Shown here in pieces: positions 51,264-58,529 of a stretch of 64,000 nucleotides of DNA. A program made the position numbers and the translations under genes. The stretch comes from Rhodobacter sp. (GTDB taxonomy: Bacteria; Pseudomonadota; Alphaproteobacteria; Rhodobacterales; Rhodobacteraceae). The notes beneath the pieces were generated by a model. It saw only the letters and a program-made list of their open reading frames with translations, was not told the origin of the DNA and did not search any database. The stretch's first letter is position 1, and each line of letters begins with the position of its first letter. Location: assembly GCA_013821825.1 (NCBI GenBank), contig PNJK01000009.1:22476-86475 (forward strand). The letters run 5' to 3'.

Positions 51264-52237
51264 TCACGGCTTCGGCGGCAACATAAGGATCGCGCGGAAA
51301 TCGTTGACGTTGGTCAGGGTCGGGCCGGTGATGACCTGCGCGCCGGTTGCAGCAAAGAAGCTGTGACTGTCATTGCTGGCCAGTACTTCGACCGGGTCGC
51401 GACCACTTGCGGCGGCGCGGCGCAGGATGTCCGGGCCGATCACTGCGCCCGCCACCTCGGCCGCGCCGTCGACGCCATCGGTATCGCAAGCAAGAAGGTG
51501 AATGCCCTTGGCGCCCCGCAGTGCAATTGCTGCAGCGAGTGCAAATTCGGCGTTCGGACCACCACTGCCGGATCCGCGCCGGGTGACGGTCAACTCGCCG
51601 CCCGAAAGCAGCAGAACCGGGGCGCTGCCGACCAGGCTGGCCTGTAGCCGCAGCGCAAGTTCAGCCTGTGCCGTGCCAACGTCCCGGGCTTCGCCCTCCA
51701 CGGTGTCGCCAAGCAGGACCACCAGAACACCCGCTGCGCTTGCAGCCTCTGCGGCAGCCGCAAGCGACTGCGCCGGGGCGGCGATGACGCGCGTTTCGAC
51801 ATGGGCAAGACGAGCGTCACCAGGCGGGGGATCACACCCGATCCGGTGGCCAGCGCTGCCATCGCGGCCGCCGGTACCGGTATGTTCCAGCGCCGGATCA
51901 CGGCCAGCGCATCGTCAACCGTTCTGTCGTCACCCACCGTGGGGCCCGAGGCGATCATCCCCGGATCATCGCCGGGGACGTCGGAGATGAGCAGCGCCAG
52001 CATGGGCGCAGGTGCTGCAATCGCGGCAAGCTGACCGTCCTTCACAAGGCTCAGATGCTTGCGCAGCAAGTTCATTTGCGAAATCGGCGCGCCCGAGGCC
52101 AGAAGAGCCGCGTCCACAGCCTGCTTTTCGGGCGGGGGATCTTCGCTGCTCTGTGCGGCCACCACGCGCATCGGGTCGGCGGTGGCCACGGCCAGATCAA
52201 AGAGGTCGCGCAGAAGGACCTCGGCCTCGCCGATCAT
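51264..52237 (-). pseudogene. Broken glycerate 2-kinase (GckA/TtuD type)
   Basis: The N-terminal frame (EVLLRDLFDLAVATADPMRV) jumps straight to PPPEKQAVDAALLASGAPIS, so roughly 100 residues usually found between are missing. The next part is good (LLISDVPGDDPGMIASGPTV) up to about 51840, where the frame changes: the continuation PPPGDARLAHVETRVIAAPA, VLLGDTVEGEARDVG and TGPTLTNVNDFRAILM is one frame away. One internal deletion plus one frameshift make it non-functional. Its start overlaps the isomerase stop (ATGA), as in an operon. Intact relatives phosphorylate D-glycerate at the 2 position. Confidence 0.88.
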
Positions 52238-52690
52238 GCCAGCCAGCGGGCGTAATCGCTGACCAGAAGGCGGCTTGGCGCCTCATCCTCCTCGACCGTC
52301 GCAAAGCGACCGATCGGCTCGCGGTGATGTTGTCGGTCTCGTCGTCGTTGACGGTCGAGACTTCACCCACCAGGACATCGCCGCCCTCGCCCCAGAAGGC
52401 ATGCCAATCGCCCGGCATCAGCGTGACGCTTTCGCCGGGGGCGAGGTGCAGCTTCTCGCCGGGGCCGAAGTCGCACCCGACGCCGTCGCAGAACACGGTG
52501 CCGCCCCGGTCTTCGGCAAAGCCGCCCGCATCGTCCCAGCCGCAGCGGGCAAAGATCACCTTGGCCGCCACCCCGCGCCGCGCCCGAAATTCGCCCGGGG
52601 TCCAGTTGGCGAAGGGCGGCAGGACGAAGCCGTAACGCGGATCATGTCATCCGCTTCGGCCATGATCGCATTGATGCGGGATCGGTTCAT
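52234..52690 (-). pseudogene. Broken D-lyxose/D-mannose isomerase (LyxE type)
   Basis: Pieces in different frames can be joined: a start MNRSRINAIMAEADDMI, then after a frame change YGFVLPPFANWTPGEFRARR and GVAAKVIFARCGW, then a jump to KLHLAPGESVTLMPGDWHAF and VLVGEVSTVNDDETDN, then another frame change to EPIGRFATVEEDEAPS and RLLVSDYARWLA. About 70 residues including most of the cupin core are gone and two frameshifts are present. Intact members interconvert D-lyxose/D-xylulose and D-mannose/D-fructose. The ATG at 52690 overlaps the stop of the glycosidase remnant. Confidence 0.8.
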
Positions 52691-53961
52691 GCCAGGGCCT
52701 CCATCGACAGGAACTCCAGGACCATCGCGGCGGTTCAGGTAAAGCGTGCTCCGCCAAGGGGTTCGTCGGTCTGCGGATCATAGGATTCGGCAAAGCCGCT
52801 TTTGCGGATGAGATTAGGGCTTGAAGCGGCGACGGCGGCTGCCGCTTTCCTTTGCCCGGCCCGCGCAAGCCGTCTGCGATCATATAGCTCACCACCAGCC
52901 ATGCAGGGCCCCGCCAATATCGCTTGCCGTCATAGCGCGGGTCCGAGGGCGGATGGCTTGCAACCCGATACTTCGTGCCGTGCGCTTCGATTGTCTGGGC
53001 GATGGTTGCCGCGCGCTCCTTCGGTACGGTGCAGAAACAGGCCAGAAGCCCGGCAACCGACCGGCTGTCGACCAATTGTCCGCTGACCCGGTCGCGGCAG
53101 AGGTACTGGCCGTGGTCCGCCGACCACAGATCTTCAAGTGCCGCCACCCCCCGCGCCGCATAGGCCCGGTTTTTCGGCTGCGATATCGGCCATGCCGATC
53201 ACATCTGCCAGGACTGCAAGATCGTCGCAGGACCGCAGCAGGATTGCGTTGAACCCTGGATCGACGACAGGGAACGGAGAGGCGTCGTGAAGCTTCGATG
53301 TGTCCCACTTCAGCTTTCGGAAATGCTCGATCAGCCAGACCACCCGGTCATAGAATTCCTGTGTCGGGCGGTGCGAAGGGTCGGCATGCAGGATGTCCTT
53401 GCGGACGTAAGGCGTGGTGGTGCGCCCCACCCGCTCAAAGGCCGTGTCCCAGTCGACTGAGTTGTCGCGTCCTGTCTCCCAGGGATGAATGATGGCCACG
53501 AGCCCTTCGCCCGCCGGGTCGCGTGTGGTGAAGAACCAGCGGTGCCATTTGGCAACCTTCGGCAGCACCTCACGCAGACGCGCGGTCGCCGCCTCCATGT
53601 GGGCGGTTAGCTCACAAAGCTTGCGCAGCGCAAAGCCGGTGACGGCTGGCTGCATGATGCCCGAGGCTGGCACCGGACGACCCGTCTGCCAGAAATCGGG
53701 TCCGAGGAAATCGCCGTCATCATGCTCGTGAAAGTTGATGTGCGGTACCATTCCGCACGGCCATTGATGCGCCATCAGGGTCTCGATCTCGGTCCAGGCG
53801 CGGTCTTCGTCGAAATGCGCCTGTCCCAAGGCCGTCAGGGCGCCGTCCCAGTTCCACTGGAACAGATGGGGCCCCTTGGTCGGAACCGTGTACTGGCCCC
53901 GGTCATTCTCGCGCAGGATTTCGATCGCGCGCGAAATCAGTTCGGTGTTGTCGCCAATCAA
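52687..53961 (-). pseudogene. Broken MGH1-type glycoside hydrolase (GH63-like)
   Basis: The frame from about 53961 reads IGDNTELISRAIEILRENDR, HLFQWNWDGALTALGQAHFD, CGMVPHINFHEHDDGDFLGP and IHPWETGRDNSVDWDTAFER, typical of the (alpha/alpha)6 barrel family with mannosylglycerate/glucosylglycerate hydrolases and trehalase-like enzymes. A frameshift lies in the A5 run near 53172 (AEK changes to NRAYAARGVAALEDLW one frame away). A second shift near 52850 leads to SGFAESYDPQTDEPLGGARF, and a TGA stands where tryptophan of the usual FTWTAAM is expected. No good start codon other than TTG is seen. Confidence 0.85.
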
Positions 53962-53968
53962 AATACCC

Positions 53969-54811
<843 letters not shown>

Positions 54812-54947
54812 CCGCAACGCCCCGCTCCGCCACCAGCCTTACCGCCTCGATCCTGAACTCGCGGCTGAACTTCCGTCGTATCATTTGCATCCTCCAATTC
54901 CATGGTCACGATCTTATCTTCGCGTCCACGAAACCGGCAGCAGCTCA
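54812..54947 (-). mobile_element. IS3-family remnant, left end with start of OrfA
   Basis: Minus strand: terminal TGAGCTGCTGCCGGTTTCGT followed by GGACGCG, a Shine-Dalgarno TTGGAGGATGC and the OrfA start MIRRKFSREFRIEAVRLVAE, ending at RGVAVA where the ATPase remnant takes over. The 20-nt end matches the right-end repeat at 15.64 kb in 19 of 20 positions by eye, so both belong to the same or a very similar element. Confidence 0.85.
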
Positions 54948-55230
54948 TCATGGTGACCACCGCCACCTTGATCGAGGTCCAGAGCGCATGCAGCACGCCG
55001 TCGAACTCGATGAAGAACCGGATCGACGCAAGGTCGAAGGACGGGAAGAACGCCTTGGGAAAGCCGTTCACCTCTTCCGGCGTGGAGAGCGCGTTGGTCA
55101 CCGGAAGGTAGATCGGCAGCAACGTCCACACGCACAGAAGGATGACACCCGTCTGGAAGACCCGGCGTCCAGCCTTCTTGACCAGTTCGGCCGCGATTGT
55201 CGGCGCGGGTTGATGGGCTGCAGTGGTCAT
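54948..55230 (-). pseudogene. Truncated sugar ABC transporter permease 2 (MalG-like)
   Basis: Only the N-terminal 94 residues remain: a cytoplasmic start (MTTAAHQPAPTIAAELVKKA), a first membrane helix (VFQTGVILLCVWTLLPIYLP), SLSTPEEV-like periplasmic loop and the beginning of the second helix, cut at the IS3 left end. The catalytically important EAA loop is lost. Its start overlaps the permease 1 stop by 4 nt. Confidence 0.85.
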
Positions 55231-55757
55231 GTCCGGGCTCCTTTCGGAACGCGCAGCGCACGCAGGATGACAAGGGTGAAAAGCACCGACACGGCGAGTA
55301 TCACCATGGCGTGGGCGGCGGCGACACCGCGGTCTTGCAGAACGAACTGCCAGTTGAAGGTTTCACTCATCAGGACCGGCATCTGCGTCCCGCCAAGCGC
55401 CATCACGACAGCGAAGACCTCGAATGCAAGGATCACGCGCAGGATCAGGGCGGTCTGGAGCGTGGGCTTCAGCATCGGCGGCGTCACCTTGATGAAGCGC
55501 TGCCAGCGGGTGGCGCCGAAGACCTCGGCGGCCTCGCCGTATTCCTTGGGGATCAGTCCGAGACTGGCGACCAGGATCACCATCATGATCGCCGTCGCGC
55601 GCCAGACTTCGGCCAGTATGATGCCGACAAGGATGATCCAGGGTGTCTGCTAGCTTAGGTAGAGCACCGGCTTGTCGACGACGCCTAGGCCGACGAGAAG
55701 GCTGTTGAGGAACCCCGACTGTTCCAGGATCGACAGCCAGATCAGCCCGGCGGCCAG
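55227..55757 (-). pseudogene. Truncated sugar ABC transporter permease 1 (MalF-like)
   Basis: C-terminal part of a MalF-type permease. The EAA-type loop is EYGEAAEVFGATRWQRFIKV. Upstream of the track start the same frame continues as QTPWIILVGIILAEVWRATA and, before a TAG in place of an expected sense codon, VLAAGLIWLSILEQSGFLNS and VVDKPVLYLS. The N-terminal half is absent, cut at 55757 by an IS3-type remnant in the opposite orientation. Two lesions: truncation and nonsense codon. Confidence 0.87.
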
Positions 55758-56238
55758 GACTGGTTCACCCGGCGCGTTCTGGCATGGCGGGTGTCGATCA
55801 CCCTTGAGGCCGGTTTTTGCATAGAAGCTGTGGAGGAGGCGCTCGCGCGGCACGGCGCGCCCGAAATCTTCAACACCGACCAGGGCAGCCAGTTCACTTC
55901 GACCGAGTTCATCAAGGTGCTGGCAGCCCGCGAGATCAAGATCAGCATGGATGGCAAGGGCGCGTGGCGGGACAATGTCTTCGTCGAGCGCTTGTGGCGG
56001 ACCATCAAATACGAAGGGGTCTACCTGCGCGCCTATGCCAGCGTGTCCGAAGCCCGGGCCGGGATCGGACGATATCTGACTTTCTACAATGGCCGCCGCC
56101 CGCATTCATCGCTTGACGGGAAAACCCCCGATCAGGCCTACTTCAACCAGCCGATGCCCGAAGCGGTGGCGGCGTAACCGAGGCGGAAAACCACTTAGAA
56201 AACGCCCGAAACCTGTTCAGATCAACCGAACCACCTCT
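55758..56238 (+). mobile_element. IS3-family remnant, C-terminal half of OrfB
   Basis: Plus-strand frame from 55758: DWFTRRVLAWRVSITLEAGF, IFNTDQGSQFTSTEFIKVLA (second catalytic Asp), ISMDGKGAWRDNVFVERLWR (third catalytic Glu), YNGRRPHSSLDGKTPDQAYF and stop at 56177, then about 60 nt of element end with TGTTCAGATCAACCGAACCA. This is a different IS3 subgroup from the 15.6/54.9 kb element, since the DGKGAWRDN block differs from DSAAMESF. The 5' part of the element is missing. Confidence 0.88.
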
Positions 56239-56406
56239 ATCCACCCCGCCTTCAAAGCCGGCCACCACGGATTCGCGCATCTTCTGCGTCTCTTCCACGG
56301 GCTGCGCCTGCGTGGACCAAAACAGAACCTCTGCCTGCGCACCACCAGCCATAAGGCCAAGTACCAGCGCCGAGGCAGCGCCAAGAATTTTCACTTTGGT
56401 TGACAT
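56239..56406 (-). pseudogene. Truncated extracellular solute-binding protein, N-terminus only
   Basis: Signal peptide MSTKVKILGAASALVLGLMA (cleavage near AQA-E) and the first mature residues EVLFWSTQAQPVEETQKMRE up to GGVD survive; the rest, some 350 residues, is gone at the junction with the IS3 OrfB remnant. The start of the mature part is typical of sugar-binding proteins of the family-1 extracellular type. It was the first gene of the broken operon and diverges from the LacI gene. Confidence 0.85.
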
Positions 56407-56518
56407 TCTTCCCTCCCTTTCGGGGCACCGCCGACTGAAGTGTCAGCCGAAAACTCTCTCCGATGATTCCCGCTGTTGAGGATTTTCTTCCAACGAAATA
56501 GCGGAATAAGAAGGAATA

Positions 56519-57466
56519 TTGTTATGGAAATCAACGCTCCATGATAAGTACATCGTAGGCGACGGGCCGTATTTGAAAGAACGTCATACCATTACTCCGA
56601 AGCGTGCTACCCTTCATAGCCTTGCTGCCGCCGCCGGCGTTTCACTGGCGACCGCAAGCCAGGTAATGCGTGGAGCTGGCAGGATCTCGGAACACACCCG
56701 GGAAGGTGCTCGCGGCGGCGCGCAAGATCGACTACGTGCCGGACGGGCGTGGGGCGGCGATGCACAGCGCCAGCAGCGCCAAATTGAAATGCTGGTCGGC
56801 AACGCGCGGGCTGGAATCATGTGGGTTCCTGCCATCGGCACCTCTGCCGATACGATCCGGCTTCTGAGCCGCCGCGCCGTGCCAAACGTCACCTTCCTGC
56901 GCCATGCTCCATCGCACCCGGCTGACCATGTCGGCATCCAGAACCGGCTTGCCGCCAGCGCGGTGACCACGCATCTGGCTGATCTTGGTCACAGCAGGAT
57001 AGCCTTCCTTGGCGCCAACCTGGATGTGGAATCGCGACGCGACCGGATCGCTGGCTACAGCGATATCCTGGCAGAGCGCGGGCTTCGCGGGCCTGTCGTC
57101 TGGTCCTGCCCGGACAGCCGCCGAGGCGGCATGAGCGAGTTCGCCGAACTGATAGCGGCGCATCCAACGACAAACGCCGTGGTGTGCAACGGCGACACGA
57201 TCGCACTTGGCGCGGTTATTGCCATGGCGCGGGCGGGCATTCTTCCTGGTCGCAATGTCTCTATCACCGGCTTTGACGGGATCGAAGGGGCCTCGCTCGT
57301 GGTGCCACCGCTCACCACGGTTTCGATTGCGCCCTACAAACTTGGCCGCAAACTTGCCGAGACCTTGCTCAGCCGTATCCGTTACCCGGACCAACCGCTC
57401 GTCGACCTTTCCGTTCAAGGCAAGCTGGTCATCGGAGCGACCAGCGGACCGGTACCGGCAAGCTGA
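56519..57466 (+). pseudogene. Broken LacI-family regulator
   Basis: The DNA-binding part reads ATLHSLAAAAGVSLATASQV and GRISEHTR; after that the frame shifts and the hinge continues in another frame as KVLAAARKIDYVPDGRGAAM. About 50 residues of the first ligand-binding lobe are missing, then the original frame resumes with VGNARAGIMWVPAIGTSADT, SRIAFLGANLDVESRRDRIA, NAVVCNGDTIALGAVIAMA and ISITGFDGIEGAS-like SITGFDG. Frameshift plus deletion leave no working repressor. It was the divergent local regulator of the broken transporter operon. Confidence 0.85.
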
Positions 57467-57487
57467 CCGCAATGACATACCTTCCGT

Positions 57488-58210
57488 TCAGGGTGACGCG
57501 TCCTGCGCGCCGCCCGCCCGAGCGAGGCCGGCAAGTCTGTCCGGCCAGAACGTATGAGCTGTCGCGGTCTGGTTGCGCGCGTGCCAGTACGGCGCCATGC
57601 GCAAACCGTCCTGGGACCATTGCGCCGCGACATGTCCCAGCCCCGCCTCTCCGGTTTCACTGAGCGACTTGGGCAAGGCTGCTATGATCGGGGTGCCACC
57701 GATCAATCGCAGCGCGGTGTCGAAATCACCGACCTGAAGCGCGACCGTCCGGGTTCGGTTGATCCGGGCAAATTTTGGTAAACCTGGAATCCGGCATCCG
57801 GCCCGAAGGCGACCCTCACCTGCGGTCTCGAGCTGAAAGCGTCAAAATCACCCTCAGCCAGCGGATGGGCCGGTTCGAAGAACATTGCGTCGCGTATGAC
57901 CAGCAGGCTGTGCTGCATGATACCCTCGCCCTCGACGCCCGCAGGCTTCAAGGCGAAATCAATTGCCTTCTGGCGCAGCCTGTCGATCATCTGGCGCGAT
58001 GATCCGGGTGGCTGGATGTCAAAAGTCAATCCTGGCGCAACCCGTATCTCGTGCTCCAGAAGCGGCGCGACCAGAGCATCCCGTTCGACCGCCGCAGCCG
58101 AAGACCTCAATGCCCCCAAGTCCTGCGAAGGATCATGGGTTTCGCGTTCGAACGTAGCTTCAAGGTCCGGTCCTGCATCCGAAAGCGAAGCCTGACCGAT
58201 GCCCGGATCC
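57488..58210 (-). pseudogene. Broken LysR-family regulator
   Basis: The effector-binding part is clear in one frame (VAPGLTFDIQPPGSSRQMID, IDFALKPAGVEGEGIMQHSL, FFEPAHPLAEGDFDAFSSRP, VRVAFGPDAGFQVYQNLP) and continues after a frameshift near 57710 in a second frame as GGTPIIAALPKSLSETGEAG and HARNQTATAHTFW. The N-terminal winged helix is only hinted at in a third frame around 58150-58210 (RMQDRTLKLRSNAKPMILRR), so further damage is present. No start can be given. Confidence 0.75.
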
Positions 58211-58529
58211 GCAAACACCCGTTCGTCGATGGGGCGGTTGGCGGAGCTGCCAGGGGTGCGGTCCCCCCTTTGAAGGGGAGTGTCCACGGTGGACTGAGTG
58301 GGGCCCGCAAGGGATTTCAAGGGGTTAGCTATGAACGTTAAGGGTTTGGTAAGGAGTTGACGCACCAAGATAGAAGAACCCAGGGTTCAGTCTCCATTGC
58401 ATCAAGGGTGTTGTCGTGCAGCTTACGTCATTCTCAGTTTCAGAGGGGGTCCATGGCGGGCTCCTGTTGGCGGGGGCAGGAGACCGGGGATCGGTTAGGG
58501 CCGGGTAAGCGGGGCGCGCGCTGGCGGGG
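58211..58529. other. Gene-free stretch between LysR remnant and DUF1489
   Basis: No protein family or RNA gene recognised. Two inverted repeats stand out: GTCCACGGTGGAC at about 58279-58291 and GCTCCTG/CAGGAG spaced by about 10 nt near 58458-58484, the latter suitably placed downstream (minus strand) of DUF1489 for a terminator. The track ORFs here are shadows or run-ons of the LysR remnant. Confidence 0.5.

Follow-up and report, generated by a model that had tools for sequence, protein, structure and literature searches.

The DNA considered here, which we call the window, is a stretch of 64,000 nucleotides deposited as Rhodobacter sp. (assembly GCA_013821825.1, contig PNJK01000009.1, positions 22476-86475), from a draft assembly of 4.02 Mb in 234 contigs with an estimated contamination of 4.95%; its host is placed by GTDB in Tabrizicola. 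Between window positions 51264 and 57466 lies a wrecked operon in which eight genes can still be recognised: a minus-strand row encoding a binding protein, two permeases, an ATPase, an MGH1-type hydrolase, a LyxE-type isomerase and a glycerate 2-kinase, and a divergent LacI-family gene. This arrangement of seven genes in one row beside a divergent repressor had been proposed in an earlier note on the same DNA, and open reading frames and family searches show it to be real, as are the ATGA-type overlaps reported there, which we find between permeases 1 and 2 (55230), hydrolase and LyxE (52690), and LyxE and glycerate kinase (52237). Aligning the proteins of an intact operon, at a locus labelled L036, to the window gave the following map of the damage.

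51264-52237, minus strand: glycerate 2-kinase pseudogene (DUF4147 and MOFRL); about 110 internal codons gone, frameshift near 51845; intact orthologue L036:7214-8461, 415 residues.
52234-52690, minus strand: LyxE-type D-lyxose/D-mannose isomerase pseudogene; frameshifts near 52636 and 52325, residues 54-126 (about 73 codons) gone; intact in L036:8461-9147.
52687-53961, minus strand: pseudogene of the MGH1/GH63-type hydrolase; the frame shifts near 53150 and again near 52900, and a nonsense codon lies at 52737-52735.
53969-54811, minus strand: ATP-binding cassette (ABC) transporter ATPase pseudogene; first 69 or so residues, with Walker A, lost at an IS3 junction, nonsense codon at 54622-54620, Walker B Asp changed to Gly.
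54808-54943, minus strand: IS3-family remnant; one insertion sequence (IS) end at 54943 and the start of orfA, cut off against the ATPase; match to L226 545-680; open reading frame MQMIRRKFSREFRIEAVRLVAERG.
54944-55230, minus strand: what is left of permease 2, a stub spanning roughly residues 6-90 of its 279.
55227-55757, minus strand: permease 1, residues 106-279 only; broken by a nonsense codon at 55652-55650 and overlapping permease 2 by ATGA.
55758-56241, plus strand: IS3-family remnant; C-terminal part of a transposase (rve_3), IS end at about 56241.
56239-56406, minus strand: binding protein stub; signal peptide, residues 1-54.
56594-57466, plus strand: divergent LacI-family repressor pseudogene; about 40 residues gone, frame scrambled past the helix-turn-helix.

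Each gene thus carries at least one lesion, as the earlier note had held. Its description of a complete operon was too generous: all eight genes are recognisable, but the binding protein and permease 2 survive as mere stubs. The pieces are named by Pfam and NCBIfam as MOFRL and DUF4147, Lyx_isomer, MGH1-like_GH (in two frames), a TOBE_2 ATPase, a BPD permease and LacI; family searches of the fragments also matched the glycerate 2-kinase in two frames and named an IS3 transposase end. In the hydrolase, whose pieces score 200 and 78.5 bits against MGH1-like_GH, the nonsense codon replaces the Trp of a C-terminal FTW motif, while that of the ATPase adjoins the signature region. The stretch lost from LyxE (relative of known structure, PDB 3kmh) presumably takes in the HxH/Glu metal-site region of the cupin family. 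The plus-strand IS3 remnant ends inside the binding protein at 56241 and breaks off at 55757, the point at which permease 1 takes up again. Between them the two IS3 remnants account for what is missing from the binding protein, both permeases and the ATPase, the largest of the losses, and since these remnants lie in opposite orientation they stand for two insertions or for one rearranged insertion. The earlier reader had missed both of these fragments. By codon-usage gene calling, the genes on either side are intact (hisS, hisZ and hisG up to 51085; DUF1489 and nrdJ from 58530) and only fragments lie in between. Adjoining the dead operon, positions 57480-58370 give a weak match to a LysR substrate domain (E 0.006), probably another pseudogene.

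The survey of intact relatives covered 395 genomes of the order and a further scan of named genomes, with gene calling on the fetched regions. A close hydrolase (58-70%) occurs in 27 of the 395 besides the host, and a distant one (about 40-52%) in more than 100; the distant hydrolase loci that we examined represent a different operon type. When the contigs were scanned with the fossil hydrolase as a single-protein query there was no match, probably because the decayed query lacks conserved words, whereas an alignment-based scan returned 80 loci. The distinct hydrolase loci number 103; binding protein, two permeases, ATPase and hydrolase stand in this order in more than 75 of them, nearly all of which have an adjacent lacI gene. 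The exact eight-gene set is free of lesions in four cases, namely L036, L046, Maliponia aquimaris CECT 8898 (L051, identical to L092, with the hydrolase at L092:10001-11254) and an uncultured Nioella (L078), so that the intact same-order operons for which the earlier note had called do exist in other Rhodobacterales. Two further candidates were rejected: in Pseudorhodobacter wandonensis (L082) the ATPase (L082:8949-9988) reads in two frames, and in an uncultured Jannaschia (L074) the glycerate kinase (L074:12408-13608) carries a lesion; these disrupted frames suggest decay or assembly error there as well.

What follows the hydrolase varies. LyxE comes directly after it in about 25 of the 103 loci, and at the Aliiroseovarius marinus locus (L108) the next gene after LyxE encodes a PfkB kinase, for which the best NCBI model is fructokinase, with a score under that model's cut-off; such a kinase would complete a path from mannose to fructose 6-phosphate. 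Directly after the hydrolase of about 12 loci stands a PIG-L gene, which Pseudotabrizicola also has. This GlcNAc-PI de-N-acetylase homologue replaces LyxE and glycerate kinase in L031, L032, L033, L034, L109, L113, L122, L131, L147 and L150; operons of that kind have a co-directional lacI with a motif centred on AAACGTTT upstream, and their substrate may be modified. A search of the window for a PIG-L gene found none. In the distant clade (L058-L070, Rhodobacterales) the order is LacI, binding protein, a permease of about 410 residues, another of about 400, hydrolase and ATPase, possibly serving glucosylglycerate use. Three loci from Devosia and Chelativorans (L093, L106, L111) have two hydrolase genes of the same family per transcription unit.

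The earlier claim of a dead import-and-hydrolysis operon finds full support, and we think it probable that the locus is what remains of an operon under LacI control for the breakdown of a 2-O-glycosyl-glycerate, with 2-O-alpha-D-mannosyl-D-glycerate (digeneaside) as the likeliest substrate. Its intact relatives would bring the solute in through the binding protein, the ABC permeases and the ATPase, and cytoplasmic cleavage by the inverting MGH1-type hydrolase would release mannose and D-glycerate. LyxE would convert the mannose to fructose, to be taken up by a fructokinase, and the glycerate would pass through glycerate 2-kinase to 2-phosphoglycerate. The hydrolase of L036 matches MGH1-like_GH (PF22422) over the whole profile (366 bits) and is 47.8% identical to the mannosylglycerate hydrolase of Thermus (MgH; 2z07/4wva) vs 36.6% to the mycobacterial glucosylglycerate hydrolase (GgH). 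The catalytic and substrate residues of the Mycobacterium hassiacum enzyme (MhGgH) have been described (PMC6608630); in its numbering, L036 keeps the catalytic Asp182 and Glu419 and 15 further substrate-site residues (Tyr36, Trp40, Trp42, Asp43, His78, Tyr88, Gln115, Trp177, Gly180, Arg216, Tyr222, Tyr375, Trp376, Trp381 and Trp436). The intact LyxE matches PF07385 over its full length (332.6 bits) and misses the cut-off of the NCBI equivalog NF051472 (237.5 against 350); the intact glycerate 2-kinase has DUF4147 and MOFRL both full length and misses the cut-offs of two archaeal-type glycerate kinase models of NCBI. Judged from gene content, LyxE and the one PfkB kinase in these operons point to mannose, and the glycerate kinase argues for a glycerate aglycone. 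The earlier note had looked to intact operons acting on another substrate, or to a hydrolase branch outside the mannosyl- and glucosylglycerate hydrolases, as signs of a different function, and we encountered neither.

Several observations weigh against so specific a substrate. The enzyme alone cannot decide the sugar, because MhGgH hydrolyses both glucosylglycerate and mannosylglycerate (PMC6608630); LyxE and glycerate kinase are absent from most of the core operons; and the fossil hydrolase (support 98/87) and permease 1 (98) fall in a clade usually linked with PIG-L, not with LyxE and glycerate kinase, a clade that may have a modified substrate. LyxE is moreover common at large, occurring in 221 of the 395 genomes. 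We rejected it as a rare diagnostic gene on that ground; only its adjacency and enrichment therefore count in favour of mannosylglycerate, the latter being 24 of 27 genomes with the close hydrolase vs 196 of 367 others (Fisher p=2e-4, uncorrected for shared ancestry).

The double specificity of MhGgH and the scarcity of LyxE and glycerate kinase in the core operons would also suit an operon of the same type whose main substrate is 2-O-alpha-D-glucosyl-D-glycerate, a major solute of Prochlorococcus (PMC11631117), with LyxE serving a side activity or occasional mannosylglycerate. We regard this as unlikely, if the most serious of the alternatives. LyxE is a D-lyxose/D-mannose isomerase for which action on glucose is not known (family knowledge; PMC10128022), and it is enriched in the genomes that have the close hydrolase. 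The hydrolase itself is nearer MgH than GgH, and intact orthologues reach only 356 and 377 bits against the 550-bit cut-off of the NCBI GgH equivalog (NF047898). The earlier proposal of mannosylglycerate is thus favoured by the hydrolase and by LyxE and PfkB but stands unproven in a family with a member that takes both solutes; we rank it well ahead of glucosylglycerate. A second alternative takes the PIG-L linkage of the fossil hydrolase, and the dozen or so loci in which PIG-L follows that gene, as signs that the substrate is another mannoside or one with a modification, such as an N-acylated or amide derivative, with PIG-L deacylation or LyxE and glycerate kinase as alternative downstream steps. 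We consider this improbable: the equivalents of the glycerate-binding Tyr36, Tyr88, Arg216 and Tyr375 are kept in intact members, and several operons have a glycerate kinase in the same transcription unit.

Whatever its substrate, the operon is dead, as independent inactivating lesions in every gene between intact flanks confirm; such decay is ordinary evolution. The fossil hydrolase keeps the equivalent of Asp182, while those of the substrate-binding Tyr36 and Tyr88 are now His and Asp (changes past residue 355, which lie partly in out-of-frame pieces, were set aside). The ratio of divergence at codon positions 1 and 2 to that at position 3 is 0.39-0.48 for the fossil hydrolase vs 0.20-0.34 for intact ones, and 0.33-0.41 vs 0.16-0.30 for the ATPase. 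These raised ratios and the lost tyrosines fit a loss of constraint, and from the leftover third-position excess it follows that selection acted through most of the fossil's history. That the lesions are instead assembly or sequencing errors in a functional operon, which a contaminated draft in so many contigs might suggest, can be dismissed as extremely improbable, because truncated IS3 elements and losses of several hundred bases are not base-call errors, hisS, hisZ, hisG, DUF1489 and nrdJ are full length, and conserved active-site residues have been substituted under relaxed constraint.

The intergenic region between lacI and the binding protein gene bears on the regulation of the operon. 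In 46 of 46 non-redundant divergent regions (LacI1 type) we find a predicted operator, the 18-bp palindrome TGRTATAWCGWTATAYCA, which in nearly all of them directly follows a TTGAC -35 box; the candidate operator sequence for the divergent LacI is TGGTATAACGTTATACCA. A second, weaker site is present in 34 of 48, towards lacI and about 100-120 bp off in the examples inspected. With one mismatch allowed, the pattern has no match outside this operon in nine whole intact genomes, and the reversed pattern that served as control has none at all. Co-directional LacI proteins are of another type with a different enriched motif, around AAACGTTT. The fossil operon has two such sites in the window.

56574-56591, no strand assigned: TGGTATGACGTTCTTTCA, the operator nearer lacI, in decayed form; at 9.9 bits it outscores every other site in the 64 kb.
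56512-56529, no strand assigned: the intergenic operator nearer the binding protein gene, likewise decayed; ranks sixth among all window sites.

The best window site outside the operon scores -0.6 bits, and 0.35% of shuffles reach the score of the site at 56574-56591. Given these ranks, the fossil keeps decayed versions of both predicted operators. A local regulon under LacI control, with a conserved palindrome at the promoter and not elsewhere, is thus supported by sequence comparison; the divergent LacI would presumably repress by binding the palindrome just past the -35 box, with the second site lying further towards lacI at the distance given above.

How the operon reached this place is less plain. 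In 14 congener regions, including those of the three nearest congeners by hisG, hisG is followed by DUF1489 and nrdJ or by other genes, never by this operon. Among 32 congeners an intact close hydrolase occurs only in Tabrizicola sp. bin.65 (G409, NZ_JALHQD010000011.1), where it is attached to an unrelated operon of LacI, ABC, dehydrogenase and isomerase genes (L219:2446-10931); in another Tabrizicola (G401) 65 C-terminal residues are what is left of this hydrolase (L220:9844-10059), an independent loss. The synteny would suit acquisition, presumably by transfer, followed by decay, or repeated loss, alike. In trees, the fossil LacI falls in the divergent clade with a support of 100, and the fossil is a mosaic, with hydrolase and permease from the PIG-L-linked clade and LacI and operator from the LyxE-linked one; a similar mix of LacI1 and clade-II transporter was seen only in L091 among the trees built. 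The exact sisters of the fossil genes are unsure because decay makes the end branches long. We envision that this Tabrizicola operon, once placed between hisG and DUF1489, would have been inactivated by IS3 insertions that took adjoining DNA with them, by small indels and by nonsense mutations. Elsewhere in the host a LyxE gene (C5) and a glycerate kinase gene (C58) are still intact, and the loss of the operon therefore spares mannose isomerisation and glycerate phosphorylation.

Red algae and some microbes make mannosylglycerate for protection against salt; together with glucosylglycerate it belongs to the solutes of red algae and of marine picocyanobacteria. Its dedicated catabolism in E. 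coli by MngR/MngA/MngB relies on import by the phosphotransferase system and on a mannosidase of family GH38 that attacks the solute in its phosphorylated form; the solute is the one proposed here, but the proteins are unrelated throughout. Thermus thermophilus MgH (GH63; PDB 2z07, 4wva-c) belongs to the same fold family and has its catalytic Asp/Glu and substrate residues in common with the intact hydrolase, whereas the window copy is a pseudogene; to our knowledge MgH of Thermus has not been placed in an uptake operon with ABC transporter, LyxE and glycerate kinase. The M. hassiacum GgH shares the MGH1-like domain and catalytic pair but serves intracellular solute recycling, not uptake. A red-algal Rhodoalgimonas has a predicted glucosylglycerate phosphorylase, a different enzyme. 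LmuKAIZYX of enterohaemorrhagic E. coli O157 combines an ABC transporter, a kinase and the LyxE relative LmuI, which converts mannose to fructose, but it has no hydrolase or glycerate kinase, imports free sugar and is under two-component regulation (PMC10128022). In a comparative genomic survey of LacI regulons, local repressors with palindromic operators and autoregulation were common, and its main text mentions no regulator of mannosyl- or glucosylglycerate (PMC4052901). Literature searches found no paper linking a mannosylglycerate hydrolase with LyxE or glycerate kinase, and none on how alphaproteobacteria consume mannosyl- or glucosylglycerate. The intact operon with its operator is thus apparently an undescribed variant of known mannosyl- and glucosylglycerate catabolism.

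An evenly balanced wider proposal is that, in Rhodobacterales and Rhizobiales, glycosyl-glycerates of algae and cyanobacteria are taken up by a widespread route that lacks annotation and is made up of the intact relatives, with swappable modules (LyxE, LyxE with glycerate kinase, LyxE with PfkB, or PIG-L) and two LacI types each with its own operator, the Tabrizicola fossil being a hybrid of two such lineages. The trait is patchy within the genus, and the fossil itself records one case of its loss. A concrete annotation rule and a set of assays can be built on the intact operon together with its dedicated repressor and an operator unique in the genome, and the intact copies in related bacteria should make the predicted function testable.

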